33,599 nt of DNA from Desulfobacteraceae bacterium. Its GTDB lineage: Bacteria > Desulfobacterota > Desulfobacteria > Desulfobacterales > ETH-SRB1. The stretch is from assembly GCA_030593145.1 (NCBI GenBank), contig JAUVHU010000022.1, forward strand, positions 1-33,599, given 5' to 3'. Shown piece by piece: positions 100 through 29,158 of this stretch; position 1 is the first letter of the stretch, and every line of letters begins with the position of its first letter. The position numbers and the translations under genes were made by a program. A model generated the notes under the pieces. It had not been told where the DNA came from, did not search any database, and saw only the letters and a program-made list of their open reading frames with translations.

Positions 100-206
100 T
101 TACGGCGCAATCTGTACAACTTATTTATACTTGCCTCCTAAGAGGAATGGCAGGTGTTTAGATTACACTATTTGGTCCTTTTTATTAGCAATATTTAAAA
201 GGTATT

Positions 207-2132
207 ATGGTAGAAGATCAATCAAAATTCGAGCTGCGTATTACCGATGACGACATGGCGGTTATGCTCTACTGTACTATATCAGAGGCTAATTCCAATG
301 AGATTGTGGCCAGTATCAAGCAAGAGCTCGAAGCTGCCGGCATAACTTCCGTTCCACGTGAGGAAGAACTGGAAACACTCCTGCGCTGCGCAATAAAAAG
401 CGGTGCTACTCGTATAAGTGAAATGCCTGTCGTTGAAGGCAGACCATCGGTTCCACCGATTGACGGGACTATCAAATGGGCCGGCGATTTTTTCGATGAA
501 GGGTCCATGGTCGATGAAAAATCGGCAAATGGAGACCATATGCTCCAGACGGTACGATCGATAGTCGAAAAGGACCAGCTTCTGGCATGCGTCACACTCT
601 CAAAGGAAGGTCAGGAGGGCTGTGATGTATTTGGAAAACCGATTGCGGTGCGTCAACCAAAATCTGCTGAGATACACACAGGGTCGGATATCAAAGTCCA
701 GAAAGAAAATGATAGGGTGAACTATTTCGCGACCGCAAGGGGTCGGATTAAGTGGGTTTCAGGGGTGCTTGTTGTTAACAGAGAAAAAACAATATCTGGG
801 AATGTGGGTACAGCAAGCCGCCACCTGAATTGTCCGGGACCGCTCGTGATTGAGGGAGATGTTCTGGCGGGCGCAAAAATCACCGCAGGTGATACTGTCG
901 AGATTAAAGGAGCCGTGGAGTCGGCAATTATTCGTGTGGGTGGAAATCTAATCGTAGGTAAGGGTATAGCCGGCGGTGAAGACCTAAGAATCAAGGTCGA
1001 GGGTGGTATCAAGACGACCTATATCCTGGGGGGGTACATTGAATCCCTGGGAGATATTGTGGTCAAGAATGAGATCATACAGTCCACGCTCAAGACACAA
1101 GGTGCGGTGGTCATTTCGGATGGGCGACTGGCTGGAGGGAGTGTAACCGCGCTTGGTGGTATTGTTGTGGGAGAGGCGGGTAATGATGAGTATGTAAATA
1201 CAGAACTTGTTGTTGCCGAGGACTATTTGCTTCCGGCTAAAATAGCAGCCAGGGAAGAGGAACTCGCGTCTTTTCAAGCAAAGGTGGAGCAAATACACAA
1301 GTTGTTAGATCCGATGATGATCGAACTTGCGCTACATGAACGTGAAGCTGCCGCAAAAAAGCTTTTAGAGGCTGAAGCCGCTGTTGAAAAAGTGAAAGCA
1401 GAAATACAAAAAATCAAAGCTGATTCTCACGTTCGCGCAAAGCCGCACATATTGATCAAGAGATTGCTATATCCTGGGACAACTTTATGTATCGCAGGCA
1501 ACAAGGGGCAGGCAAACAAGGCGACGGGGCCGCTGGAAGTCGTTCTGTCCGGCAAAAAGGTTGTGCTGAGGAAAGTGAAAGAGGTGTCTCGCGCGATCCC
1601 CAAGAAGCGGAATAATGAAAATAGTTGCGTTGCAAATAGTGAAATAGGGCAAAACCAGGAAATGAAGACAGGGCATATAAATCTTTTTATAGAAAGTGTC
1701 CAAAACCTGTTTTTATCCATGCTGGGTTGCAAGGCGAACCCCGGGAAGGCTGGGATCGCTGATGGTGTGGGAAATTCAGAGGGCATTACAGCCCTTATTG
1801 GTTTAAGCGGACCGATTCGAGGTAATGTTGCGCTCACTTTTCCAGAGAAAACGGTGCTTAATGTTATTAATCGTATGCTCGGTTCCAAGATGCGGGTCGT
1901 TGATGAACTTGTGACCGATAGTGTTGCGGAGCTGGTGAATATAGTTGCCGGCGGAGCTAAAAAAAAGTTGTCTTCAGCCGACGGTCCTCCGGTTGATCTG
2001 GGCCTTCCGACAGTGTTAAGTGGCAATGGCTATGTTGTTCAGTATCCTTCAAAGTCGATATGGTTTGAGGTCCCCTTTACAAGTGATCTGGGTTCGTTTA
2101 CACTCCAGGTTACTTTTGAATCGCAAAAGTGA
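207..2132 (+). CDS. FapA/DUF342-type protein fused to a CheX-like phosphatase domain
   Basis: A 641-aa protein with three parts. Residues about 1-340 resemble the DUF342/FapA family: an N-terminal domain, then a Gly/Val/Ile-rich stretch (about 190-330) typical of the polymer-like beta-helix. Residues about 345-405 are charged and Ala/Glu/Lys-rich, probably a coiled coil. Residues about 486-641 resemble CheX/CheC. The phosphatase signature ExxN with a following Gly is visible in AELVNIVAGG (E575, N578, G582), the residues that in CheX/CheC/FliY insert into the CheY active site. The ATG has an AAAGG ribosome site 5 nt upstream. A CheY-like receiver follows 153 bp downstream in the same direction, so the CheX part probably dephosphorylates that or another receiver. 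FapA proteins are linked to flagella and polar localisation in other bacteria; the role here is inferred. The domain fusion is the notable point. Confidence 0.82.
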   Translation: MVEDQSKFELRITDDDMAVMLYCTISEANSNEIVASIKQELEAAGITSVPREEELETLLRCAIKSGATRISEMPVVEGRPSVPPIDGTIKWAGDFFDEGSMVDEKSANGDHMLQTVRSIVEKDQLLACVTLSKEGQEGCDVFGKPIAVRQPKSAEIHTGSDIKVQKENDRVNYFATARGRIKWVSGVLVVNREKTISGNVGTASRHLNCPGPLVIEGDVLAGAKITAGDTVEIKGAVESAIIRVGGNLIVGKGIAGGEDLRIKVEGGIKTTYILGGYIESLGDIVVKNEIIQSTLKTQGAVVISDGRLAGGSVTALGGIVVGEAGNDEYVNTELVVAEDYLLPAKIAAREEELASFQAKVEQIHKLLDPMMIELALHEREAAAKKLLEAEAAVEKVKAEIQKIKADSHVRAKPHILIKRLLYPGTTLCIAGNKGQANKATGPLEVVLSGKKVVLRKVKEVSRAIPKKRNNENSCVANSEIGQNQEMKTGHINLFIESVQNLFLSMLGCKANPGKAGIADGVGNSEGITALIGLSGPIRGNVALTFPEKTVLNVINRMLGSKMRVVDELVTDSVAELVNIVAGGAKKKLSSADGPPVDLGLPTVLSGNGYVVQYPSKSIWFEVPFTSDLGSFTLQVTFESQK

Positions 2133-2285
2133 GCGTATTCCACGTCCACCTGAGGCTTGCCGAAGGCGAATGTGGTTAGCAAGCGAATCAAATAATGACA
2201 AATTTTCTTACAGTCGAAGCCCGCTGGGCAGGACTGTAGGGGGTTTCAACCTGGTAAAAACGAGTATTAAGAAAGGTGGTAATCC
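2133..2285 (+). other. Structured intergenic leader before the CheY-like gene
   Basis: This 153-bp gap holds two inverted repeats. One is GCTTGC (2155-2160) with GCAAGC (2179-2184). The other is a nested hairpin: TACAGTC (2209-2215) pairs with GACTGTA (2232-2238), enclosing GCCC-GCT-GGGC. No T run follows, so it is not a standard terminator. It could shape mRNA stability or relative translation of the two genes. The receiver gene has a GGTGG-like site just before its ATG. Confidence 0.4.
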
Positions 2286-2648
2286 ATGAAAGTTCTGGTA
2301 GCTGACGATTCAGCGTTAATGCGTCATGTCCTTGTCAAGACCCTGAATGAGGGTGGTGTACAAACTGTCGTGCAGGCCATGGACGGAGCAATGGCTGTAG
2401 AAAAAGTCGCGGAAGAGAATCCGGACTTGGTACTAATGGACTGGATCATGCCCAACATGAGCGGGCTTGAGGCTGTGAAAGAGATTCGCGCAAGCGGAAA
2501 CAATGTTCCTATCATTATGTGCACAACCGAAGGCGAGCGGAATCGCATTATCGACGCGATTAAAGCAGGTGCAAACGATTTCGTTGTCAAGCCGTTTGAA
2601 CCTGAGACCATAATGGCAAAGATTAAAGAAACCTTGGCAAAAGTTTGA
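2286..2648 (+). CDS. CheY-like single-domain response regulator
   Basis: A 120-aa protein that is only a receiver domain, with no output domain. Visible landmarks are the acidic pair D7/D8, the phosphoacceptor D52 in LVLMDWIMPNMSG, the switch Thr region T80/T81 (IIMCTTEG), the aromatic F99 and the conserved K102 of the KPF motif. This is the usual CheY length and layout. It follows the FapA-CheX fusion on the same strand, so it is a natural substrate for that phosphatase domain; that pairing is inferred. No histidine kinase is encoded in the window. A strong hairpin follows directly. Confidence 0.93.
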   Translation: MKVLVADDSALMRHVLVKTLNEGGVQTVVQAMDGAMAVEKVAEENPDLVLMDWIMPNMSGLEAVKEIRASGNNVPIIMCTTEGERNRIIDAIKAGANDFVVKPFEPETIMAKIKETLAKV

Positions 2649-2869: not shown

Positions 2870-2924
2870 ATATTGTTGTGTGAGTTTGATACTTAATGCC
2901 TATACCGGCAATAAATAATAAATA

Positions 2925-2999
2925 TGGAGGCGGCAATCAGATTCGAACTGATGAATAGCGGTTTTGCAGACCGCTGCCTTACCACTTGGCTATGCCGCC
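2925..2999 (-). tRNA. tRNA-Cys (GCA)
   Basis: On the minus strand the sequence folds as a tRNA. The acceptor stem is GGCGGCA/TGCCGCC, and the anticodon arm is GCGGT-CTGCAAA-ACCGC with anticodon GCA. The T loop is TTCGAAT. The discriminator is T and the CCA end is encoded (2925-2927). It is 18 bp downstream of tRNA-Gly, in the same transcript. Confidence 0.96.
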
Positions 3000-3017
3000 C
3001 AAAAAAATGGACAAAAA

Positions 3018-3092
3018 TGGAGCGGGAAACGGGATTTGAACCCGCGACTTCGACCTTGGCAAGGTCGCACTCTACCACTGAGTTATTCCCGC
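3018..3092 (-). tRNA. tRNA-Gly (GCC)
   Basis: On the minus strand the acceptor stem is GCGGGAA/TTCCCGC and the anticodon arm is CGACC-TTGCCAA-GGTCG, giving anticodon GCC. The T loop is TTTGAAT and the CCA end is encoded (3018-3020). It is the first gene of a two-tRNA unit with its own near-consensus promoter at 3117-3146. Confidence 0.96.
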
Positions 3093-3095
3093 TCA

Positions 3096-3110
3096 GAGAC
3101 CTTTGAAAAA
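3096..3110. repeat. Solo end of the E1 repeat (GAGACCTTTGAAAAA)
   Basis: These 15 bp are identical to the left end of the 142-bp palindrome at 5364-5505. They also match, on the opposite strand, the solo arm at 18047-18085. They lie between the tRNA promoter and the first base of tRNA-Gly, so they would be part of the transcribed leader. No second arm is visible here. Confidence 0.5.
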
Positions 3111-3116
3111 ATTATA

Positions 3117-3146
3117 ATTCTAAAATATATATTCTGATTCTGTCAA
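3117..3146 (-). promoter_or_regulatory. Sigma-70-type promoter of the tRNA unit
   Basis: On the minus strand a perfect -35 TTGACA (3141-3146) and an 18-bp spacer precede a -10 TAGAAT (3117-3122), with TATAAT directly after it as an alternative. Transcription would start about 15-20 nt before tRNA-Gly. It lies in the gap after pgsA, so the tRNAs need not depend on the upstream operon. Confidence 0.75.
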
Positions 3147-3159
3147 TATAAAAATCAGA

Positions 3160-3726
3160 TTAAATCTTAAGAAGTTTTTTGAACTTTATAAAATAATCCA
3201 CACCAGACCATATTGTCAAAACAAGAGCTCCCCACAAAAATACGGTTCCGATTCCATGAAAATTGATGCCGAAATATGGATAATGAAATAATAAAGGTAT
3301 TATGGCTGCAATCTGAAACCCTGTTTTGTATTTTCCAAGGGTTGAAGAGGCAATTTTATTTCTATTTTCAACAACAAAATTACGCAGACCTGTAACAGCA
3401 AGCTCTCTGCCTATTATGATGCAAATCATCCATGCAGGCACCCAGCCATGAGAAGCCAGCATAATAAAAGTAGAAGAAACTAACAGCTTGTCGGCAACCG
3501 GATCCATGATTATTCCGAAATCGGATACAAGTCCCCGGCGTCTCGCAAGATAGCCATCCAGATAATCGGTAATTGCGGCAGCGCTGAACAGCAGGGCAGC
3601 AATAAATGTGCAAAACCTGTTTGGAAACATCAACAACAGGACAATGCCTGGTATTGCCGCTATGCGGTATAGAGTCAACATGTTTGGATGACCCAACAAA
3701 TTTTTTATTTTGTCTTTAGTGAACAT
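3160..3726 (-). CDS. pgsA: CDP-diacylglycerol-glycerol-3-phosphate 3-phosphatidyltransferase
   Basis: A 188-aa integral membrane protein that makes phosphatidylglycerol phosphate from CDP-diacylglycerol and glycerol-3-phosphate, the committed step to phosphatidylglycerol and cardiolipin. The CDP-alcohol phosphotransferase signature is complete: DYLDGYLARRRGLVSDFG followed by IIMDPVAD, matching Dx2DGx2ARx8Gx3Dx3D. Several hydrophobic helices follow (ITAAL-type segments, then IAAIIPLLF and FLWGALVLTIW). Length is normal for PgsA. The gene lies 181 bp downstream of the aldolase gene, with an inverted phrase repeat between them, and may be the last protein gene of the arg-dap-folK run. A CDP-alcohol transferase of other specificity is less likely given length and N terminus. 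Confidence 0.93.
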   Translation of the reverse strand: MFTKDKIKNLLGHPNMLTLYRIAAIPGIVLLLMFPNRFCTFIAALLFSAAAITDYLDGYLARRRGLVSDFGIIMDPVADKLLVSSTFIMLASHGWVPAWMICIIIGRELAVTGLRNFVVENRNKIASSTLGKYKTGFQIAAIIPLLFHYPYFGINFHGIGTVFLWGALVLTIWSGVDYFIKFKKLLKI

Positions 3727-3745
3727 TATATTTAATTCTAAAATG

Positions 3746-3893
3746 AGCGATTAGCCATTAGCTTTTAGGCTATTAGTCAAACTATATCAAGATGTTATTA
3801 AATAATAACATTTACCCAATGGGTGAAGATCGAATCGCTGGTAACTACCCAAAATAATAAAAGCTAACCGCTAATTGCTAAGAGCTAATCGCT
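3746..3893. repeat. Inverted heptamer repeat element (NNTTAGC phrase)
   Basis: The left arm on the + strand reads GATTAGC, CATTAGC, TTTTAGG in consecutive 7-nt units (3749-3769). The right arm read on the - strand gives GATTAGC, TCTTAGC, AATTAGC, GGTTAGC, TTTTATT (3890 down to 3856). The ends AGCGATTAGC and GCTAATCGCT are perfectly inverted. The spacer (about 80 bp) holds a small hairpin (TGTTATTAAATAATAACA) and no ORF. The element fills the pgsA-aldolase gap. Confidence 0.75.
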
Positions 3894-3907
3894 TAACGTA
3901 GTTTATA

Positions 3908-4552
3908 TTATTTCTTTGTCTTTTCCCAGTCGGCAAGAAATGCTTTCAGGCCTTTATCGGTCATAGGATGAGCAGCAAATTTTGCAAGCACATTAAAGGG
4001 TATGGTGGCGATGTCCGCGCCGATCAAGGCTGCATCAAGGACATGAAGCGGGTGGCGTACGCTTGCCACAATGATTTCTGTGTCAAATGCATAATTGCTG
4101 TAAATTTCAACAATTTGTTCAATAAGAAGCATACCTTCACTGGCCAGGTCATCAAGACGGCCGATAAACGGGCTAACATATGTAGCTCCGGCTTTAGCCG
4201 CCATAAGAGCCTGAAGGGGTGAAAATACAAGGGTTACATTTGTTTTGATTCCTTCGCTCGAAAGTTTGTGGGTTGCCTTTATCCCGTCAATCGTCATGGG
4301 TATCTTTACGACAATATTATCATTGATAGTTGCCAGATGACGCGCCTCTTTGACCATGCCTTCGGTATCAAGACTGATAACTTCGGCGCTTATGGGGCCA
4401 TCAACTATTTCACAAATTTCTTTGATTATTTCTTCAAAATCACGCCCTTCTTTTGCAATAAGGCTGGGATTAGTTGTAACGCCGTCAACCATTCCCATGT
4501 TGTGGGCTTCCTTTATTTCGTCAATATTAGCTGTGTCTATGAAAAATTTCAT
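3908..4552 (-). CDS. fsa: Transaldolase / fructose-6-phosphate aldolase family protein
   Basis: A 214-aa protein, the size of the small transaldolase type 3/FSA subfamily rather than the roughly 315-aa classical TalB. Family features are [16 protein letters not shown] at the N terminus, [13 protein letters not shown], the Schiff-base lysine K83 in NIVVKIPMT, and [32 protein letters not shown]. It should catalyse aldol transfer or cleavage on fructose-6-phosphate or sedoheptulose-7-phosphate. Sequence alone does not separate the two activities, so the symbol is tentative. The ATG has a strong GGAGG site 7 nt upstream. It lies 47 bp below the PP0621-like gene. Confidence 0.9.
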
Positions 4553-4599
4553 CTATCAATATCCTCCTGGAAAACTTTTTTATTATATTCAAAAATCGC

Positions 4600-4863
4600 T
4601 CAATTTAGATCCGAACGTGATGCAATAAATTTGTCCCTGCATTCTGTGCTGCAAAAAAACAGATCACTTCCATCAACTTTCAGATGCACACCATTTCTCT
4701 TTGGGAAATATACATTGCAATAAGGATCCTTAACCATCTCATCGTCAATCTCATTGGCAGCTTTGCCTGAAACAGGTCTTTGTGATGGCTGACCTGGAAG
4801 CATCCAGGACTTCAGCACCCTGTAACCCAAATATATAACTGCTAATAATATTAATAATCGCAT
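4600..4863 (-). CDS. Small membrane-anchored PP0621-like protein with Cys motif
   Basis: An 87-aa protein. Residues about 2-20 form one hydrophobic N-terminal helix, followed by a short Pro/Gln/Ser linker. The C-terminal part reads MVKDPYCNVYFPKRNG, then LFFCSTECRDKF. The arrangement of one Cys (DPYC) and a later CxxxC is like YHS/TRASH-type metal-binding modules and the PP0621 family; metal binding is inferred. Its ATG lies inside the 3' end of folK (13-bp overlap), so the two are probably translationally coupled. Function unknown. Confidence 0.8.
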   Translation of the reverse strand: MRLLILLAVIYLGYRVLKSWMLPGQPSQRPVSGKAANEIDDEMVKDPYCNVYFPKRNGVHLKVDGSDLFFCSTECRDKFIASRSDLN

Positions 4864-5360
4864 TTATATTGAATCAGCCTTTGCCCTTTATCGTCAAGGT
4901 TATCTAATAAAGATTGCATATCCATTTTTAAAACAGGATGCACAATCGTTGGATCTATATCACAAAAAGGTTTTAATACAAAGCGTCTTTTGTGCATCTT
5001 TGGATGTGGGATTATAAGTTCAGATAAATTTATTATTATATCATCATACATAATTATATCAAGATCAAGAATCCTCGGCCCAAATCTTATTGAATCATTA
5101 ATTCTTCCCGCGTCTTGTTGGATTGACTTAAGCCTGCTTAAAAGCTGAAAAGGATCAAGTATGGTTTCAATCTTTACAACAGCGTTAACAAACCAATCCT
5201 GGTCTTTGTAGTCAACCGGCTCAGTTATATAAAATGGTGATTTATCCTTTAAGGTTGATATTCCGGATTCGGTCAGAGCAGTTATGCCGTTTTGACAGTT
5301 CTCAAGTCTGTTTCCTATGTTGGAACCTGCGGAAATATATGCAATGTGCTGGTTAGTCAC
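4851..5360 (-). CDS. folK: 2-amino-4-hydroxy-6-hydroxymethyldihydropteridine diphosphokinase
   Basis: A 169-aa enzyme that transfers pyrophosphate from ATP to 6-hydroxymethyl-7,8-dihydropterin in folate synthesis. HPPK motifs are present in order: AYISAGSNIGNR near the N terminus, DWFVNAVVKIET, the signature FGPRILDLDIIMYDD (about residues 90-106), and LIIPHPKMHKRRFVL. Length is typical. The start is GTG at 5358-5360. Its best ribosome site, AAAGG, lies inside the terminal repeat of palindrome E1, 7 nt upstream. FolB and FolP are not in the window. It overlaps the next gene by 13 bp. Confidence 0.95.
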   Translation of the reverse strand: MTNQHIAYISAGSNIGNRLENCQNGITALTESGISTLKDKSPFYITEPVDYKDQDWFVNAVVKIETILDPFQLLSRLKSIQQDAGRINDSIRFGPRILDLDIIMYDDIIINLSELIIPHPKMHKRRFVLKPFCDIDPTIVHPVLKMDMQSLLDNLDDKGQRLIQYKCDY

Positions 5361-5363
5361 CTT

Positions 5364-5505
5364 GAGACCTTTGAAAAATGCTCAATTTTGTTCGAGTACA
5401 AGGAAGGCGAAAATTTCAACCACAGGAATATATTGAATATTTCGAGGATTAAAATTTGAGCCTGACACAGTAATCGGGCAAAAGGGGGTGTTTTGCAAAG
5501 GTCTC
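5364..5505. repeat. 142-bp palindromic element E1
   Basis: The terminal inverted repeats are GAGACCTTTG (5364-5373) and CAAAGGTCTC (5496-5505), with A-rich sequence just inside both. At the centre, AATAT-ATTGA-ATATT (5427-5441) is flanked by CACAGG and TTCGAGGATT. The element exactly fills the folK-dapL gap: 3 bp separate it from the dapL stop and 3 bp from the folK start. It contains no ORF. The same left end occurs at 3096-3110, and a 39-bp arm (36 of 39 identical) at 18047-18085. Confidence 0.8.
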
Positions 5506-5508
5506 ATT

Positions 5509-6678
5509 TTAAAAACCAATGGAACTAATCCTTTCAATAACCTCTTTCAGCCTTTCCTTCCCAACTGTTAAAGCCATTCTTACATAACCCTCACCTGCCG
5601 CACCAAATCCATTGCCGGGTGTTACTACAATACCTCCCTTTGTTAACAGGTGGGTAGCAAATTCTGAGGAAGTATATCCTGCCGGTGTTTCAATCCAGAC
5701 ATAAAATGTTGCCTTTGGCTTTTCAAATGAAAGCCCAAGTCCGGCAAGTCCTTCAGCAAGGATATCGAGACGCTCAGCATATTCTTTGTTCATGGCTTTT
5801 ACGCATGCTTGATCTCCTTCAAGAGCTGTTATTCCCGCAATCTGTATTGCCTGAAAAGCTCCGGAATCGATATTGCTTTTTACCTGGCCAAGGGCCTGAA
5901 TAACTTCTGCCCTGCCAACCGCAAATCCTATACGCCAGCCTGTCATATTATATGTTTTTGAAAGGGAATGGAACTCTATTCCAACTGTCTTTGCGTCCTT
6001 GGTTTCAAGAAAACTTATTGGGCTGTATCCATCAAAAGCCATCTCTGTATAAGCTGCGTCATGGCAGATAATAATATTGTGCAATTTTGCAAACGAGACT
6101 ACTTCCTGAAAAAAACCTTTGGTTGCAACGGCTGATGTCGGATTATTGGGATAGTTAATAAACATCATTTTTGCCTTGTTGGCTATTTCATCAGGTATGG
6201 CGCCAAGATCCGGCAGGAAATTATTTTCCTTCAACAGGTTCATAAAATATGTCTCACCGCCGGCAAATTTTACACCAATATCATAGACCGGATATCCCGG
6301 ACTTGATACAAGCGCCACATCACCTGGATTGATAAAGGCAAGTGGGATATGAGCTATCCCTTCCTTGGAGCCTATCAGGGTTACAACCTCATTTGAGGAA
6401 TCAAGATCAACATTAAATCTGCGTTTGTACCACCGGGCCACAGCACCATTAAAATCATCCATTCCCGAATATGAAGGATATTTATGATTTGCAGGATCTG
6501 ATGCAGCCTGTTTTAATGCGTCAATTATATGCTGCGGTGTAGGCATGTCAGGATCGCCCACTCCAAGGTCAATAATATCAACGCCCTGCTTTTCAACCTC
6601 TTCCTTCTGCCTGTCTATTTCCTTGAACAGGTAAGGCGGCAGGTTCTTTAATCGGTCGGATTTTTCAATTTTGATCAT
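5509..6678 (-). CDS. dapL: LL-diaminopimelate aminotransferase
   Basis: A 389-aa PLP enzyme of aminotransferase class I/II. It makes LL-diaminopimelate directly from tetrahydrodipicolinate and glutamate, bypassing the DapD/ArgD-DapC/DapE acyl route. Diagnostic stretches are [15 protein letters not shown] near residue 40, NYPNNPTSA (175-183), D207 in CHDAAY, the PLP lysine K241 in [12 protein letters not shown], and the phosphate-binding R249. It overlaps dapF by 4 bp (ATGA), as expected for consecutive pathway steps. Its stop is 3 bp from repeat E1. A general aspartate aminotransferase is the alternative, but the N-terminal motifs and the dapF-lysA context favour DapL. Confidence 0.95.
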
Positions 6679-13597: not shown

Positions 13598-16500
13598 CTA
13601 TTCCTCACATGGTGTTGCGTTCTGGGTTGATGAAAAATAACTATTATATGTATCGAAAACCCATCTCGCGAAACTGCCAGCATATCCTCCCAATCCTTTT
13701 GGGGACCCGGTTTGTGGAAACCAGCCATATGTAAAATCAACGATTACTCCAGAATAAGGTGCTGTACTAAGGGCAATTGATGTGGCTGTTGGGTAAGCAG
13801 ACATAGCAGCAGCTCCTAATAGGGGTACTATTTCGCTCACAGCTGCAATTCCAATCGCCACTTTGGCAAGAGGAGGGCCGTGTAAAGCTATATCAGAGGT
13901 TGCCTTGGCCGCTTCACCAACTGCATATGCACCCCCTTTAGTTCCCTCAACAAATGCTTTTCGAACACCAGGAAGAATATCAGAAAATTCTAATCCCAAA
14001 GGATCAATCAAATTAACCGGATTATTTTGAACATAGCTAAACAGGTTGATTCCACCGATTAGCCCTATCGGATCCGGTCTGAGATACCTCCCAGTTCTTG
14101 GATCATAGTAACGGTGGTAATTGTAGTGCAACCCAGTCTCACTATCAAAGTACTGGCCCGGCAACCTGAAATTATTCACCACGCTGGAGTTTGGATTTAC
14201 CTCTGCCTCACCAAAGGGTTTATAGATGCCTTCCCAGACAACCGTGTTGTTTGCATTGGTCAGCATTTGTGGGGTGCCAAGCTGATCATTAAGATAAAAA
14301 AATATTTCACCACTTGCAACATCTACCATGGCAAGGTGGCCCTTACCCTTGTACAGGTATTCTTTGGTGAAATTGCCGCTTTGATCACTTTCGGCTATTA
14401 TGTTTCCGTTAAAATCATAAAGAAAAACCGTTGTAACGCCGCCCGCATTCTTGATTACCCTCTGTCCGAGTCCATTATAGATGTATTCTCCTAAAATGTC
14501 ACCATTTTCTTCAACCATGATCAGCCTGTTGTTCTGGTTGTAGGTGAATATCTTGTCTTCTATGTTTGTAATATTACCATTGGCATCATGTGTATAACTG
14601 ATCGTGTCGGCGCCGGTGACGGTATCAAGTATATTCGTATAGGCAACATAAGCATAATTGCTGGTAACACTGCTTTCAACCTTTGTGAGCCGGTTGCCAA
14701 CATCATCATAGGTGTAGTCAATAGTTCCATAGGGTCCTTCAGCATGATTGAGTCTGTTGAAGGCATCATAGGTAAAAGTTCGATTATACCACGGTGTGTT
14801 GGGTGCGTTTACGGATGCCAAATTACCGTTGTTATCATAGGTATATGTTCTCTCCATAGCAGCGTCGGGGTTGACGATTGTCAGACGACCGGATTCATCA
14901 TGCACGTTGTTCACCGTATCGCCTGTTCCGGTATTCATTGCTTTGGCAATACCAAAGGGACGATAGGTTGTGTTCTCCATTAAAGTTGTGGTATAGTTGT
15001 TATAGGTTGTGGAGACACTATCTACACTGCATGCGCAGCTTATCCTGGTATAGTCTATGGTCCTGCCGGTGGGGTATATAACGGAGCTTATCCTGCTTCC
15101 CGGCGTAAACAATTGCGATAGGGTATATGCAATGCTATTGATGGCGCTGGTTTTTTCTACAAGCCTGCCCCTGTTGTCATAACCAAAAGTCATGCTGCCC
15201 GACGGATCATTTATGCCGGTGCGGCGGCCAATACCGTTTGTGCCGGCATCATAGGTATAGGTGATGTCCTGTGTGGAATCAGGAAAATTAACATTGGTAA
15301 GCCGGTTCAATAAGTCATAATCGTAATCAACCGTGATTCCTTTTGCATCGGTTTTGTTCGCCAAATTGCCTGCCGCATCGTACACATACGTAGTCGCACC
15401 CGTATCCGGTGAGGTAGTTGCAACCACTCTACCCATGTCATCATATACATACGTGGTTGTGTGCGCTTCCGCATCGGCCGCTGTTTTGAGGTTTCCATGG
15501 GCGTCATAGGTGTATGCGGTAACGACACTCCCTGGTTGCGTGATCGTGATTAGACGGTTCAAAAGATCATAGCTGTAGCCGATTGTATGGCCGTTTGGGT
15601 CGGTAACGGAGTTTACGTTTCCTTCGTTGTCATATCCATACTGGATAAAGGTGTCATCCGGATTAATTTCTTTAAACAGCTTGCCGGGCATGCTATGCGC
15701 CGGATCCTGATAGGAGTATCGTTTCCATCTGGAACGAATGTTTGTCGGATCATAGTAGCTCTTTTCAATTATGTTACCCTGGGCATCATAATCGTAGGCG
15801 ATAGAGTTGCTTTTATGGTCAAAACGCTTTGACAGCCTGCAGTAAACAGGATCATATTCAAAGGTGCTGGTGACCCCGTCTTCATCGGTCCTTGATTCGG
15901 GAACTCCCGCTGTATTGTAATTAACACTGCTTGTGCTTAAATCAGTATTATTGGTAATCAGCGTAACCCTTCCCTTAGCATCATATGTGAAGCTTTTGGA
16001 TTGCCCGTTCACGTCAGTAATAGTGCCAAACTGCCCGGCAGCATCGTAATTTGAGAAACTGGCGCTTCCTATCAAGGGCCTGGTGATGGAAAGAAGATCT
16101 CCGCTTGCCGGATCATAGGTAAAAGTGGTTGTATCGCCATTGCCGGTCAGGGGGCCGTCTATGGAAAGTACTTGGCCTTTGTTGTTATAGGTGAAGGTAG
16201 TTACGTAATCATACGGTACTACAACCCCTGAGATGTCTTTTGTAAACCCTTTCTCGATGATTTGTGAAACCAGAGCTGTTGGGTCTTCATTGGGGATAGC
16301 ATCATAGTCATTATCATAGTCCCAGATGGTTTCTTTAGTGCTGCTGCCGATAACGCTGGCCTCTGTTCTTGTCAATGGCGCATTCCTATCCGGGTGATAT
16401 ATATAGTGTATCGCCCTTTCTTCAAGAGCGCCAAAGGCAAGTTTGATTGTGCCAGGATTTCCTCTGTTATCATAATTGAGGTACTGGTGGATCGTATTGC

Positions 16501-17887
16501 CGGCTGTTTCCACTTCAATGAGGTTCATCTGAGCGTCGTATTCCCAGCGAACTACATTGCTGTCGCTATACGGCGCGCCCGCGGGTCCCTGCATGGCCGT
16601 TACCCTTTTGCGGCTGTTTATCTCGCCGATAGTATAGGTGCGGACTGTGCCGTAGGCGTCGGTCACCTCCACCTGTGTATCGCTTATATACTGGACGCTG
16701 ACACCCTTTCCCTGGACGCTGAAATTCCCTGCGGTCTTGTCCTGTGTCTCGTAAGTCCATGTGTTGATCACATGGCCTGATTTGTCACTCTTCTCGGTGA
16801 GATTGTGCACATCGTTAAGATCAGCATACGTGTAACCAAACCCGGAACCGTCTGCATAGGTCACTGAGGTCAGGTTCTGGTTAGCGTCATATTCATACGT
16901 TACCCAGATCCCGGAAGGAACTCCGGCAGTCATTGGCCCGGATATGGACTCCAGCAGGCCTTTCAAATTGTAATTGAAGGTCAGCACGCGGTTGCTGGTC
17001 GTATCAATGACCGTTTCAAGCCTATCCTGGGCATCGTAGGCCAGCGCCAGACGGTTGCCATTTGCATCATCAAGCCAGAGGAGCCGTCCTGTGGATGAAA
17101 AACCGTATTTGCTTCCATCAAGACGATACCAAACATATCCCCCGGACTCGGCTTTAACCTGACTGGGTTCGTTGAATGCGCCTTGATACATGCCGTAGGT
17201 CTCTTCGGTAAAATATATGGCCCGGCCGGACTGGTTCAGTATCCTAAGATATGTTTGTCCGGACATTTCATAGGCGGGATCAAGAACGACCGAATAGGTG
17301 TGGGTCCAGCCAAATCCTGAGGAACCGCTGGTGTCAGATTGGCTGTTGTATGCGGCCTGAAAGGAGAGTCCAAGGCGGTTGGGAGATGAAAACTGGAGGT
17401 CTAATCGTGATTCCACACTGTTGCCGTTCAGGATACAAATCGATTCACCCACAACACCGCCCCCGTCCTGCTGGTTATTCGGAGAAAATCCGTAATCTGT
17501 GTCCATTACGACATCTTTCGTAACTTTAATGGTCAGATAACTTCCAGGCTTGCCTCGCAGTTCTATTGAAAGAGAGTTGTTCTCGGACAGATTAACGGGG
17601 GTCTTTAAGTGATAAATCTTTTGGTTAAAATCATTCGGACCGAATATTTGCTCTCCATTAACAAGCACCTTTGCACTGCTTATCCGATATTTGCCATCTT
17701 CGTCACCGTTCTCAATAATGAGCGTGCCCTCTCCCGGCACGTCGCGAAATGTATCTGTATAGATATCCGGCGAACCCTGAGTCCGGACGTACTGATTCGG
17801 GCCAAAGAGAGTCACCTCGACCGCAAAAGAGGTGCCAACAAATATGCTCAGGAGTAAACACAATATGAGCAGTACGGCCTTTTTCAT
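13598..17887 (-). CDS. Secreted RHS/YD-repeat protein with variable C-terminal tail
   Basis: A 1429-aa protein. Residues 1-22 are a Sec signal peptide (KKAVLLILCLLLSIFVGTSFA). Residues about 23-125 form a beta-rich N-terminal domain, and about 145-250 resemble DUF6531 (SPNRLGLSFQAAYNS, GFGWTHTYSV). Dozens of YD repeats follow (YDAQGN, YTYDAHGNL, YVYDDMGRV) up to the RHS core end HRYYDPRTGRYLRPDPIGL...NPVNLIDPLG near residue 1299. The last 130 residues are a different, Ala/Gly-rich tail with a hydrophobic centre and no enzyme family I recognise. This is the layout of polymorphic toxins and cell-surface RHS proteins; toxicity is inferred. A signal peptide favours Sec export over type VI secretion. 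The gene sits between argF and argG. Confidence 0.88.
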   Translation of the reverse strand: MKKAVLLILCLLLSIFVGTSFAVEVTLFGPNQYVRTQGSPDIYTDTFRDVPGEGTLIIENGDEDGKYRISSAKVLVNGEQIFGPNDFNQKIYHLKTPVNLSENNSLSIELRGKPGSYLTIKVTKDVVMDTDYGFSPNNQQDGGGVVGESICILNGNSVESRLDLQFSSPNRLGLSFQAAYNSQSDTSGSSGFGWTHTYSVVLDPAYEMSGQTYLRILNQSGRAIYFTEETYGMYQGAFNEPSQVKAESGGYVWYRLDGSKYGFSSTGRLLWLDDANGNRLALAYDAQDRLETVIDTTSNRVLTFNYNLKGLLESISGPMTAGVPSGIWVTYEYDANQNLTSVTYADGSGFGYTYADLNDVHNLTEKSDKSGHVINTWTYETQDKTAGNFSVQGKGVSVQYISDTQVEVTDAYGTVRTYTIGEINSRKRVTAMQGPAGAPYSDSNVVRWEYDAQMNLIEVETAGNTIHQYLNYDNRGNPGTIKLAFGALEERAIHYIYHPDRNAPLTRTEASVIGSSTKETIWDYDNDYDAIPNEDPTALVSQIIEKGFTKDISGVVVPYDYVTTFTYNNKGQVLSIDGPLTGNGDTTTFTYDPASGDLLSITRPLIGSASFSNYDAAGQFGTITDVNGQSKSFTYDAKGRVTLITNNTDLSTSSVNYNTAGVPESRTDEDGVTSTFEYDPVYCRLSKRFDHKSNSIAYDYDAQGNIIEKSYYDPTNIRSRWKRYSYQDPAHSMPGKLFKEINPDDTFIQYGYDNEGNVNSVTDPNGHTIGYSYDLLNRLITITQPGSVVTAYTYDAHGNLKTAADAEAHTTTYVYDDMGRVVATTSPDTGATTYVYDAAGNLANKTDAKGITVDYDYDLLNRLTNVNFPDSTQDITYTYDAGTNGIGRRTGINDPSGSMTFGYDNRGRLVEKTSAINSIAYTLSQLFTPGSRISSVIYPTGRTIDYTRISCACSVDSVSTTYNNYTTTLMENTTYRPFGIAKAMNTGTGDTVNNVHDESGRLTIVNPDAAMERTYTYDNNGNLASVNAPNTPWYNRTFTYDAFNRLNHAEGPYGTIDYTYDDVGNRLTKVESSVTSNYAYVAYTNILDTVTGADTISYTHDANGNITNIEDKIFTYNQNNRLIMVEENGDILGEYIYNGLGQRVIKNAGGVTTVFLYDFNGNIIAESDQSGNFTKEYLYKGKGHLAMVDVASGEIFFYLNDQLGTPQMLTNANNTVVWEGIYKPFGEAEVNPNSSVVNNFRLPGQYFDSETGLHYNYHRYYDPRTGRYLRPDPIGLIGGINLFSYVQNNPVNLIDPLGLEFSDILPGVRKAFVEGTKGGAYAVGEAAKATSDIALHGPPLAKVAIGIAAVSEIVPLLGAAAMSAYPTATSIALSTAPYSGVIVDFTYGWFPQTGSPKGLGGYAGSFARWVFDTYNSYFSSTQNATPCEE

Positions 17888-18046: not shown

Positions 18047-18085
18047 CTTGGACTTGAACAAAATTGAACATTTTTCAAAGGTCTC
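18047..18085 (-). repeat. Solo arm of the E1 repeat
   Basis: Read on the minus strand, 36 of 39 bases match the left arm of E1 (5364-5402), starting at GAGACCTTTGAAAAATG. The second arm and the palindromic centre are missing. It lies about 33 bp past the argF stop, at the boundary of the RHS locus. The rest of 17888-18046 holds a GC-rich hairpin GTCCCG-TCGCCG-CGGGAC (17938-17955) and no gene. Confidence 0.65.
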
Positions 18086-18117
18086 ATAATGAGGTTTTAA
18101 ATTTCTGATGAAAATAT

Positions 18118-28115: not shown

Positions 28116-28268
28116 GGTTTAAGGTTCAGGGTTCAAAGGTTCAAGATTCAGGGTTCACGGTTCAAGGGTTCAAAGGTTCAAGGTTCAAAATTCGACGTTG
28201 GACGTTCGATGTTCATCCCTTTTTTCTTCTAACCTTCTGACCCCTGATCCCTAACCCCCGACCCCCGG
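28116..28268. repeat. Tandem heptamer repeats of three phrases (GGTTCAA, GTTCGAC, CCCTAAC)
   Basis: Units GGTTTAA, GGTTCAG, GGTTCAAA, GGTTCAA, GATTCAG, GGTTCAC, GGTTCAAG, GGTTCAAA, GGTTCAA, GGTTCAA run without a break (28116-28188), all 7 or 8 nt. They continue as AATTCGA, CGTTGGA, CGTTCGA, TGTTCAT (28189-28216). After a T run come CTTCTAAC, CTTCTGAC, CCCTGAT, CCCTAAC, CCCCGAC (28226-28262). The array fills the NfeD-UDG gap and ends just before the UDG stop. Confidence 0.85.
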
Positions 28269-28958
28269 TTAATATTCCTTCATCAATTTCTTCATGTCTT
28301 CCCAGACATCCCGTTTTTTATCAGGACTACGAAGAAGATATGCCGGATGATATGTGGGAATAAGTTTTATCCCCATAAAATCATAAAAACGTCCCCTTAA
28401 CTTTGAAATAGGTTTTTTTGTTTCAAGAAGTGTTTGTGAGGCAAAAGTTCCGAGAGTACATATAAAGTCCGGCTTTATTACAGCAAGCTGGCGCTTTAAA
28501 AAAGGAAAACATTTGTTTATTTCATCCGGTTCAGGATTTCTGTTTCCAGGAGGACGGCATTTAAGAATATTGCAGATGTAAACCTGTTCTCTTGTAAGTT
28601 TTATCGCCTGGATTATCTTTGTTAGAAGCTTACCGGCAGCTCCGACAAACGGCTCACCGCTTGCATCTTCATCAAAACCCGGCCCCTCGCCGACAAATAC
28701 AAGTCTTGCTCTGGGATCACCTTTGCCAAAGACAATATTTTTGCGGGTGTTTGAAAGTTTACAGCGCCGGCAATCGCCAAGATCGCTTTGTATTGTTTCC
28801 AGTGTTTCCTTTGAAAACAATTCTTTTTTGCCCCATTTATTAACGGTATCGAGGCTTTTCTTTGAGCATTCAAAACCGCTGCAACCTGTTTCAGCCAGAA
28901 ATTGAAGGGTTCTCTTTGCCTCTTCGAATACAACAGTATGGTTTTGGCAATTGGTCAT
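28269..28958 (-). CDS. Family 4 (iron-sulfur) uracil-DNA glycosylase
   Basis: A 229-aa enzyme that removes uracil from DNA as the first step of base-excision repair. Four [4Fe-4S] ligand cysteines are visible: C63 and C66 (CRRC), C134 (ILKCRPPGNR) and C150 (INKCFPFL). The spacings fit the family. The active-site motif A is GEGPGFDED (about 90-98), and motif B is HPAYLLR (204-210). The first 55 residues form an N-terminal extension common in bacterial family 4 enzymes, with two extra Cys. The alternative annotation 'phage SPO1 polymerase-related protein' refers to the same fold. The ribosome site is weak. Confidence 0.93.
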   Translation of the reverse strand: MTNCQNHTVVFEEAKRTLQFLAETGCSGFECSKKSLDTVNKWGKKELFSKETLETIQSDLGDCRRCKLSNTRKNIVFGKGDPRARLVFVGEGPGFDEDASGEPFVGAAGKLLTKIIQAIKLTREQVYICNILKCRPPGNRNPEPDEINKCFPFLKRQLAVIKPDFICTLGTFASQTLLETKKPISKLRGRFYDFMGIKLIPTYHPAYLLRSPDKKRDVWEDMKKLMKEY

Positions 28959-28980
28959 AATTAATTCATTCGTAAAAAGC

Positions 28981-29020
28981 TAAGTTATGCCGTTTGCGGC
29001 ACTGTAACCAAAATAACTTA
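28981..29020. repeat. Nested inverted repeat upstream of the uracil-DNA glycosylase gene
   Basis: TAAGTTAT (28981-28988) is inverted with ATAACTTA (29013-29020). Inside is a perfect TGCCG-TTTG-CGGCA hairpin (28988-29001). It is 23 bp upstream of the UDG start on the minus strand, so it would lie in the leader if transcribed from upstream. Confidence 0.5.
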
Positions 29021-29033
29021 TCAATCATATTTT

Positions 29034-29158
29034 GAACATCGAACATCGAACATCCAACGTTGAACATCGAATAATGAAATCGCTTCGCTCCGCCGGTTTA
29101 TAAATTGATAGAATACCTTATTCAAAATTCGATGTTGGACGTTCGATGTTCGATGTTT
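29034..29158. repeat. Inverted heptamer repeat element (GAACATC phrase)
   Basis: The left arm has units GAACATC, GAACATC, GAACATC, CAACGTT, GAACATC, GAATAAT (29034-29075). The right arm has GATGTTG, GACGTTC, GATGTTC, GATGTTT (29131-29158), the inverse of the left. The spacer contains GGTTTATAAATTGATAGAAT then ACCTT; on the minus strand it starts AAGGTATTCTAT, as in the hslV-flanking octamer elements. The two exact units GTGTTAA, GTGTTAA at 29203-29216 lie just beyond it. Confidence 0.8.

Follow-up and report, generated by a model that had tools for sequence, protein, structure and literature searches.

Two adjacent genes at the left end of the DNA analysed here, one encoding a FapA–CheX fusion and the other a lone CheY-like receiver, raise the question of whether a scaffold protein brings a phosphatase to its own receiver. 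The window under study is a stretch of 33,599 nucleotides from a Desulfobacteraceae bacterium (contig JAUVHU010000022.1). Although FapA (DUF342) occurs widely, little is understood of what it does at the molecular level. In Vibrio, where it is reported to have a role in flagellum assembly, HubP brings FapA to the cell pole and FapA binds EIIA-Glc (PMC6877527, PMC12918733); another report lists fapA among flagellar superoperon genes (PMC11607428).

Results

A single frame joins FapA and CheX domains

An earlier note on this DNA had placed a FapA–CheX fusion with intact ExxN phosphatase residues, followed by a lone receiver with an intact D52, at 207-2648. The coordinates proved right and the domains scored above their Pfam cut-offs (Table 1). 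The first gene is a single frame made up of FapA_N, a FapA solenoid with a coiled coil, a disordered linker and CheX; both FapA_N and FapA score high enough to assign the N-terminal part to the FapA family. Because the window starts at base 1 of its contig (C61), the assembly holds no upstream sequence.

Table 1. Features of the FapA–CheX–receiver unit and its right flank (window coordinates).
Feature	Position	Strand	Basis or remark
Leader	140..206	+	Bases 140-201 97% identical to L044
Ribosome-binding site AAAAGG ahead of FapA start	within 140..206	+	
FapA–CheX fusion, 641 aa	207..2132	+	Pfam matches; equivalent fusion in L044 946-2874
FapA_N domain, residues 8-182	228..752	+	Pfam 65.8 bits, cut-off 27
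FapA beta-solenoid domain, residues 195-451	789..1559	+	Pfam 129.4 bits, cut-off 31
Coiled coil, residues 342-410		+	AlphaFold2 model
Disordered linker, residues 459-486, holding the junction with the 2-nt difference from G005	1581..1664	+	Model, alignment
CheX domain, internal CheX-type start Met M486, no ribosome-binding site ahead	1662..2132	+	
CheX Pfam match, residues 527-625		+	70.9 bits, cut-off 27
ExxN phosphatase motif E575-L-V-N578	1929..1940	+	Kept in L044, G005, G530
Spacer with stem-loop and ribosome-binding site GAAAGGTGG ahead of receiver	2133..2285	+	
Stand-alone CheY-like receiver, 120 aa, D7 D8 D52 T80 K102	2286..2648	+	Response_reg
tRNA-Cys	2925..2999	-	Collinearity with congener G001 stops at its 3' end

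E575 and N578 are intact as claimed and align with the corresponding residues of the solved CheX-like proteins 3iic and 3h2d. The nearest solved relatives of the C-terminal tail are CheX proteins, and its AlphaFold2 model superposes (VIA-align) on Thermotoga maritima CheX (1squ) with a Z-score of 20.4 and an rmsd of 2.0 over 152 residues, and on the CheX of the Borrelia CheX–CheY–BeF3 complex (3hzh) with a Z-score of 19.6. A failed fold prediction had been named as grounds for abandoning the earlier reading; the fold held, with Z about 20 to solved CheX, and as predicted it is robust. By Pfam score, ExxN pair and fold, the tail is a member of the CheX family. Against the NF041094 equivalog (CheX of Thermotogales) it scored 63.8 bits, below the 280 required, and judged by sequence it is not an ortholog of that group.

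The AlphaFold2 model of the whole fusion, made from 21 rows, had a mean pLDDT of 79.1 and a pTM of 0.52. Values were mostly 80-90 in the CheX domain and under 50 in the linker, and the FapA part was modelled as a solenoid whose coiled coil spans residues 342-410. With so low a pTM, the placement of FapA with respect to CheX cannot be read from the model. The model weakly suggests a polymer-like FapA part. A bactofilin match to FapA appeared in L044 alone and below threshold (22.4 bits, cut-off 27.9), and a bactofilin-like FapA was rejected. A sequence search at E 0.01 led to no solved FapA structure, and the structure matches for the solenoid part were left unused because they were beta-helical proteins of other kinds.

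The receiver follows after a gap of 153 nt. It matches Response_reg with 112.8 bits. D52 is present as the earlier note stated, and so are D7/D8, T80 and K102. With this residue set, a score above the cut-off and no output domain, it is a stand-alone receiver of the CheY type, although it gave only 89.8 and 101.6 bits against the chemotaxis CheY equivalogs NF007901 and NF041367 (cut-offs 189 and 200). The stem-loop in the spacer is only mildly stable (z -1.95), and Rfam gave nothing above threshold near the unit except the two tRNAs.

The window CheX resembles the CheX family (PF13690; T. maritima 1squ/1xko, Borrelia CheX in 3hzh) in its fold, its ExxN motif and its neighbouring receiver gene, but members of that family stand alone, whereas here CheX is the C-terminus of a FapA protein and lies outside a CheA operon. 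A CheX-type phosphatase is likewise fused to another signalling protein in the CheA–CheC/CheX fusions of Leptospirae, as given in the part of PMC10542144 that concerns them, although the partner there is a kinase rather than FapA. The FapA part shares FapA_N, solenoid and coiled coil with FapA/DUF342 (PF03961 and PF20250; Vibrio vulnificus FapA, Borrelia bb0267), from which the window protein differs in its extra CheX domain and in having no flagellar genes beside it. A separate 505-aa protein at L042 (1635-3149, genome G009) combines a FliM/FliN C-terminal domain with two CheX stretches, so that a domain of phosphatase type is joined to one of the flagellar switch.

The combination is rare and occurs fused or split

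A scan of genome contigs found a second in-frame fusion, of 642 aa, on L044 (JAFDAS010000201.1, 3467 bp), where the contig end cuts the receiver. Since this second MAG contig carries the same fusion, the window frame is not a one-genome error, and a frameshift artefact was ruled out. Among 57 relatives (58 genomes including the window's own) the unit was present in G005 alone, a different genus of the same family. G005 differs from the window by 2 nt at the junction, which splits the frame: FapA terminates there, and CheX begins at a separate ATG some 50 nt downstream of that stop. The fused state is therefore found in two of the three units, and the split copy indicates that fusion is not essential. 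The window groups with L044 in the CheX tree (support 94/78) and with G005 in the receiver tree (97/89).

As to the fusion's distribution, which the earlier note had proposed to examine, L044 was the one other fused copy found; among the matches listed for 297 genomes of the phylum and 389 of the order, FapA–CheX was absent beyond the window, L044 and G005. CheX frames longer than 500 aa among the phylum matches listed came from the window and G231, and the 633-aa frame of G231 was rejected as a second fusion, being a GC-rich read-through over CheW inside which CheX starts. Read by eye, the FapA matches listed for the same 297 genomes lay within 15 kb of a listed CheX nowhere but in the window. 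The only other close CheX in the 389 order genomes, with the top three candidates per genome scored, was that of G530. Of 242 order genomes, 4 had a receiver at E ≤ 1e-34 (those of the window, G005, G473 and G530), as did one of the 297 phylum genomes, the window's own. FapA proteins outside the unit were at most about 32% identical to the window FapA among the matches listed. Plasmids and phages yielded no relative covering 80% of the fusion, and viral contigs no match by pattern.

No paper on a FapA–CheX fusion was found in the literature searched, nor one that joins 'FapA domain' with 'response regulator'. None of the DUF342 papers concerned FapA–CheX by title, and a match for DUF342 with chemotaxis turned out to concern DUF3426. 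PMC8789113 treats both proteins, which are unrelated to one another in the part that covers them. FapA–CheX is a new combination of parts that were already known.

The neighbourhoods favour horizontal spread

The unit sits in three different neighbourhoods: upstream of the G005 copy are formate dehydrogenase and Wood-Ljungdahl genes, msrA adjoins the L044 copy, and in the window the unit is followed by tRNA-Cys, tRNA-Gly and pgsA. The congener G001 is 92-96% identical over most of window 2922-6000, and the unit is absent at its site; it is likewise missing from the tRNA site of G005, G008 and G003. L044 and G005 have a further 168 nt in common upstream of the unit (89%). Between window and G005, dS was 0.24 for FapA, 0.18 for CheX and 0.15 for the receiver, compared with 0.46-1.19 for six che-cluster genes. 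The GC content of the three units (0.479, 0.486 and 0.484) exceeds that of their surroundings (0.416, 0.443 and 0.382), although GC alone proves nothing because some 2450-nt stretches of the window reach 0.487. Taken together, the three neighbourhoods, the GC excess over the hosts, the lower dS and the absence from G001 make the unit look transferred, and these comparisons favour horizontal spread of FapA, CheX and receiver as a unit.

Integration at tRNA-Cys is no more than suggested: the stretch of about 270 nt that separates the unit from the tRNA had no match among the sequences tested, and the window lacks the left end. No integrase or transposase was recognised in the unit or at its edges among the ORFs of L036, L044 and the left end of the window, whose left flank is missing, and the unit does not qualify as a classical mobile element. 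A cross-phylum transfer, as the 'Myxococcota' label of L044 might imply, was discarded: behind that label stands the NCBI placeholder 'Deltaproteobacteria bacterium', and at the DNA level 88% of the msrA flank is identical to G031, from another family of the window's order. An interspersed repeat of about 125 nt, 87% identical between copies, occurs at window 5382-5506, between folK and an aminotransferase gene, and at L044 2974-3098, inside the CheX-receiver spacer; a 40-nt inverted piece recurs at window 18047-18086.

CheX and the receiver share ancestry and gene order

In G530 the nearest other relatives of the unit's CheX and receiver are neighbours: a CheX that stands alone (61% identical), with a receiver (77%) directly after it. 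In trees of 32 CheX and 40 receiver rows, window, L044, G005 and G530 formed one CheX clade (support 98/96), and the same four with G473 one receiver clade (96/89); both branch separately from the CheX and CheY that these genomes encode in their che clusters. Just ahead of the G530 CheX is a 23-codon frame, MNEDQSDFDLRITDD..., whose first part resembles the unit's FapA start. This remnant (15 codons) is identical at 33 of 39 nt, with a match score of 59 compared with at most 30 in 448 control stretches, and its TGA overlaps the CheX ATG (ATGA), CheX having no ribosome-binding site of its own. With adjacent CheX and receiver relatives and a FapA remnant ahead of them, G530 points to FapA–CheX–CheY as an old unit. 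The simplest reading of these sequences is that the order FapA–CheX–receiver was present in a common ancestor with G530, and that the FapA body was later deleted there.

More generally, 27 of 35 CheX ORFs in the fetched loci, a non-random sample with duplicate loci left out, lay no more than 400 nt from a receiver ORF of the same strand. G473 has a receiver 78% identical to that of the window behind hisD, with no CheX detected in 12 kb around it, so the pairing is not absolute. The proposal in the earlier note of a local phosphatase–receiver module is partly supported: it is strengthened as to the pairing, by shared lineage and by gene order in G530, but not as to its exclusivity. No closer phosphatase, which would have counted against that proposal, appeared for the window receiver, and a dedicated CheX–receiver pairing is supported by the genomic context.

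The unit is weakly constrained

Omega values for FapA (0.47-0.57), CheX (0.48-0.64) and receiver (0.24-0.46) compare with 0.145-0.198 for che-cluster genes. The high omega, the split copy in G005 and the loss from L044 CheX of 10 residues, including a conserved strand, indicate weak constraint, and by these measures the unit is accessory. Decay is consequently a serious rival: the unit might be a transferred passenger, its fusion born or broken by frameshift, little used and without a fixed role. The high omega in FapA and CheX, the frame-splitting indel in G005, the deletion in L044, the loss of the FapA body in G530 and the receiver left alone in G473 would all fit such a course. We nevertheless regard it as somewhat unlikely, given that the FapA and CheX indels among the three copies are, by eye, multiples of three apart from the junction, that dN is significantly below dS for FapA in all three pairs and for the receiver in the one pair tested (for CheX in one of three), and that ExxN is retained in all four CheX (window, L044, G005 and G530).

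FapA is linked to CheY-type signalling elsewhere in the order

No kinase or flagellar gene had been seen near the unit. Read by eye, the other ORFs of the window likewise included no recognised flagellar or chemotaxis gene, and FapA is not encoded with flagellar genes here; elsewhere in the draft assembly, however, FliG lies on C70, and the genome has two CheA kinases, on C70 and C23. The C70 che cluster, named from ORF reading and CheX matches, comprises CheA, CheB, CheR, CheD, CheW, an MCP, two CheY, CheX and a CheC/X-like protein. The unit's FapA is the only one found in the genome. Among the remaining window genes, 13598-17887 encodes a 1429-aa RHS/YD-repeat-like protein with, by eye, a secretion-type N-terminus, amid arginine biosynthesis genes, and clustered direct and inverted GTTGGACGTTCGATGTTC-type repeats surround a gene at 28269-28958 (28177-29157).

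In genus g43 of the same order, FapA lies in a che operon: it follows CheY in G530 and G473, and in G558 it comes behind CheA and a CheC/X-like gene. These FapA proteins (L063, L071 and L072; about 611 aa, encoded behind CheA) have an N-terminal CxxC...CxxC stretch resembling a zinc ribbon. At L051 (988-3447, G634) and L059 (1105-3564, G649) an N-terminal receiver is fused to FapA (Response_reg 47.8 and 40.4 bits). Che operons and receiver–FapA fusions thus connect FapA with CheY-type signalling more than once. What these five loci have in common with the window is a link of FapA to a receiver or to CheA, CheC/X and CheY genes; the partner there is a receiver domain or an operon neighbour, whereas in the window it is a fused CheX.

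One CheX enzyme can act on several CheY. The CheX part might accordingly act mainly on the chemotaxis CheY of C70, with the neighbouring receiver as a phosphate sink or adaptor; the C70 cluster holds CheA and an intact CheY, and no kinase is near the unit. This appears distinctly improbable, as C70 has its own CheX beside that CheY and the unit's CheX and receiver have common nearest relatives and a common gene order in G530.

The junction between FapA and CheX

Ribosome-binding sites precede FapA and the receiver in the window, L044 and G005, and none precedes the CheX Met. Variable sites in the linker number 4, 14 and 11 at codon positions 1, 2 and 3, which is not a coding-type pattern; a linker coding test gave p 0.03 in one pair and was set aside in view of these counts. 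That FapA and CheX are two separate genes, with the split state of G005 original and the fused frame of window and L044 incidental, would agree with the CheX-type start Met inside the frame, the FapA stop of G005 about 50 nt ahead of CheX, a double stop conserved in the shifted frame and the substitution pattern of the linker, but is very improbable in view of the two genomes that keep the fused frame open, the missing ribosome-binding site ahead of CheX in all three copies, and the G530 CheX, which has no such site either and whose overlap with the FapA remnant is ATGA.

Discussion

The reading we tentatively prefer, with a probability of roughly 45%, is that of a two-gene unit, about 2.5 kb long and spread horizontally, consisting of a FapA-scaffolded CheX phosphatase and the receiver on which CheX acts. 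The first gene would provide a FapA scaffold with a flexibly tethered CheX, and the second a stand-alone receiver as the target of that CheX. The receiver may be phosphorylated by CheA (C70 or C23) or by another kinase, and CheX would take the phosphate off again. By positioning CheX at a flagellar or chemosensory site, the FapA part could let the pair act locally on motility signalling, as a phosphate drain or as a timer. Polar or polymer scaffolding by FapA is proposed by analogy with the Vibrio FapA literature. It is quite unlikely, to our mind, that FapA is a portable address tag, such that the unit parks CheX at the flagellar pole and dephosphorylates the receiver locally in any flagellated host.

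The FapA–CheX fusion, the FapA of che operons and the receiver–FapA fusions, all within one order, tie FapA to CheY-type signalling. The unit may represent a phosphatase–receiver pair that moves as a horizontally transferred add-on. If the scaffold does position the phosphatase, this would be another route to a spatial phosphorylation gradient and, should the preferred reading be true, the cell could remove a motility signal at one chosen place.
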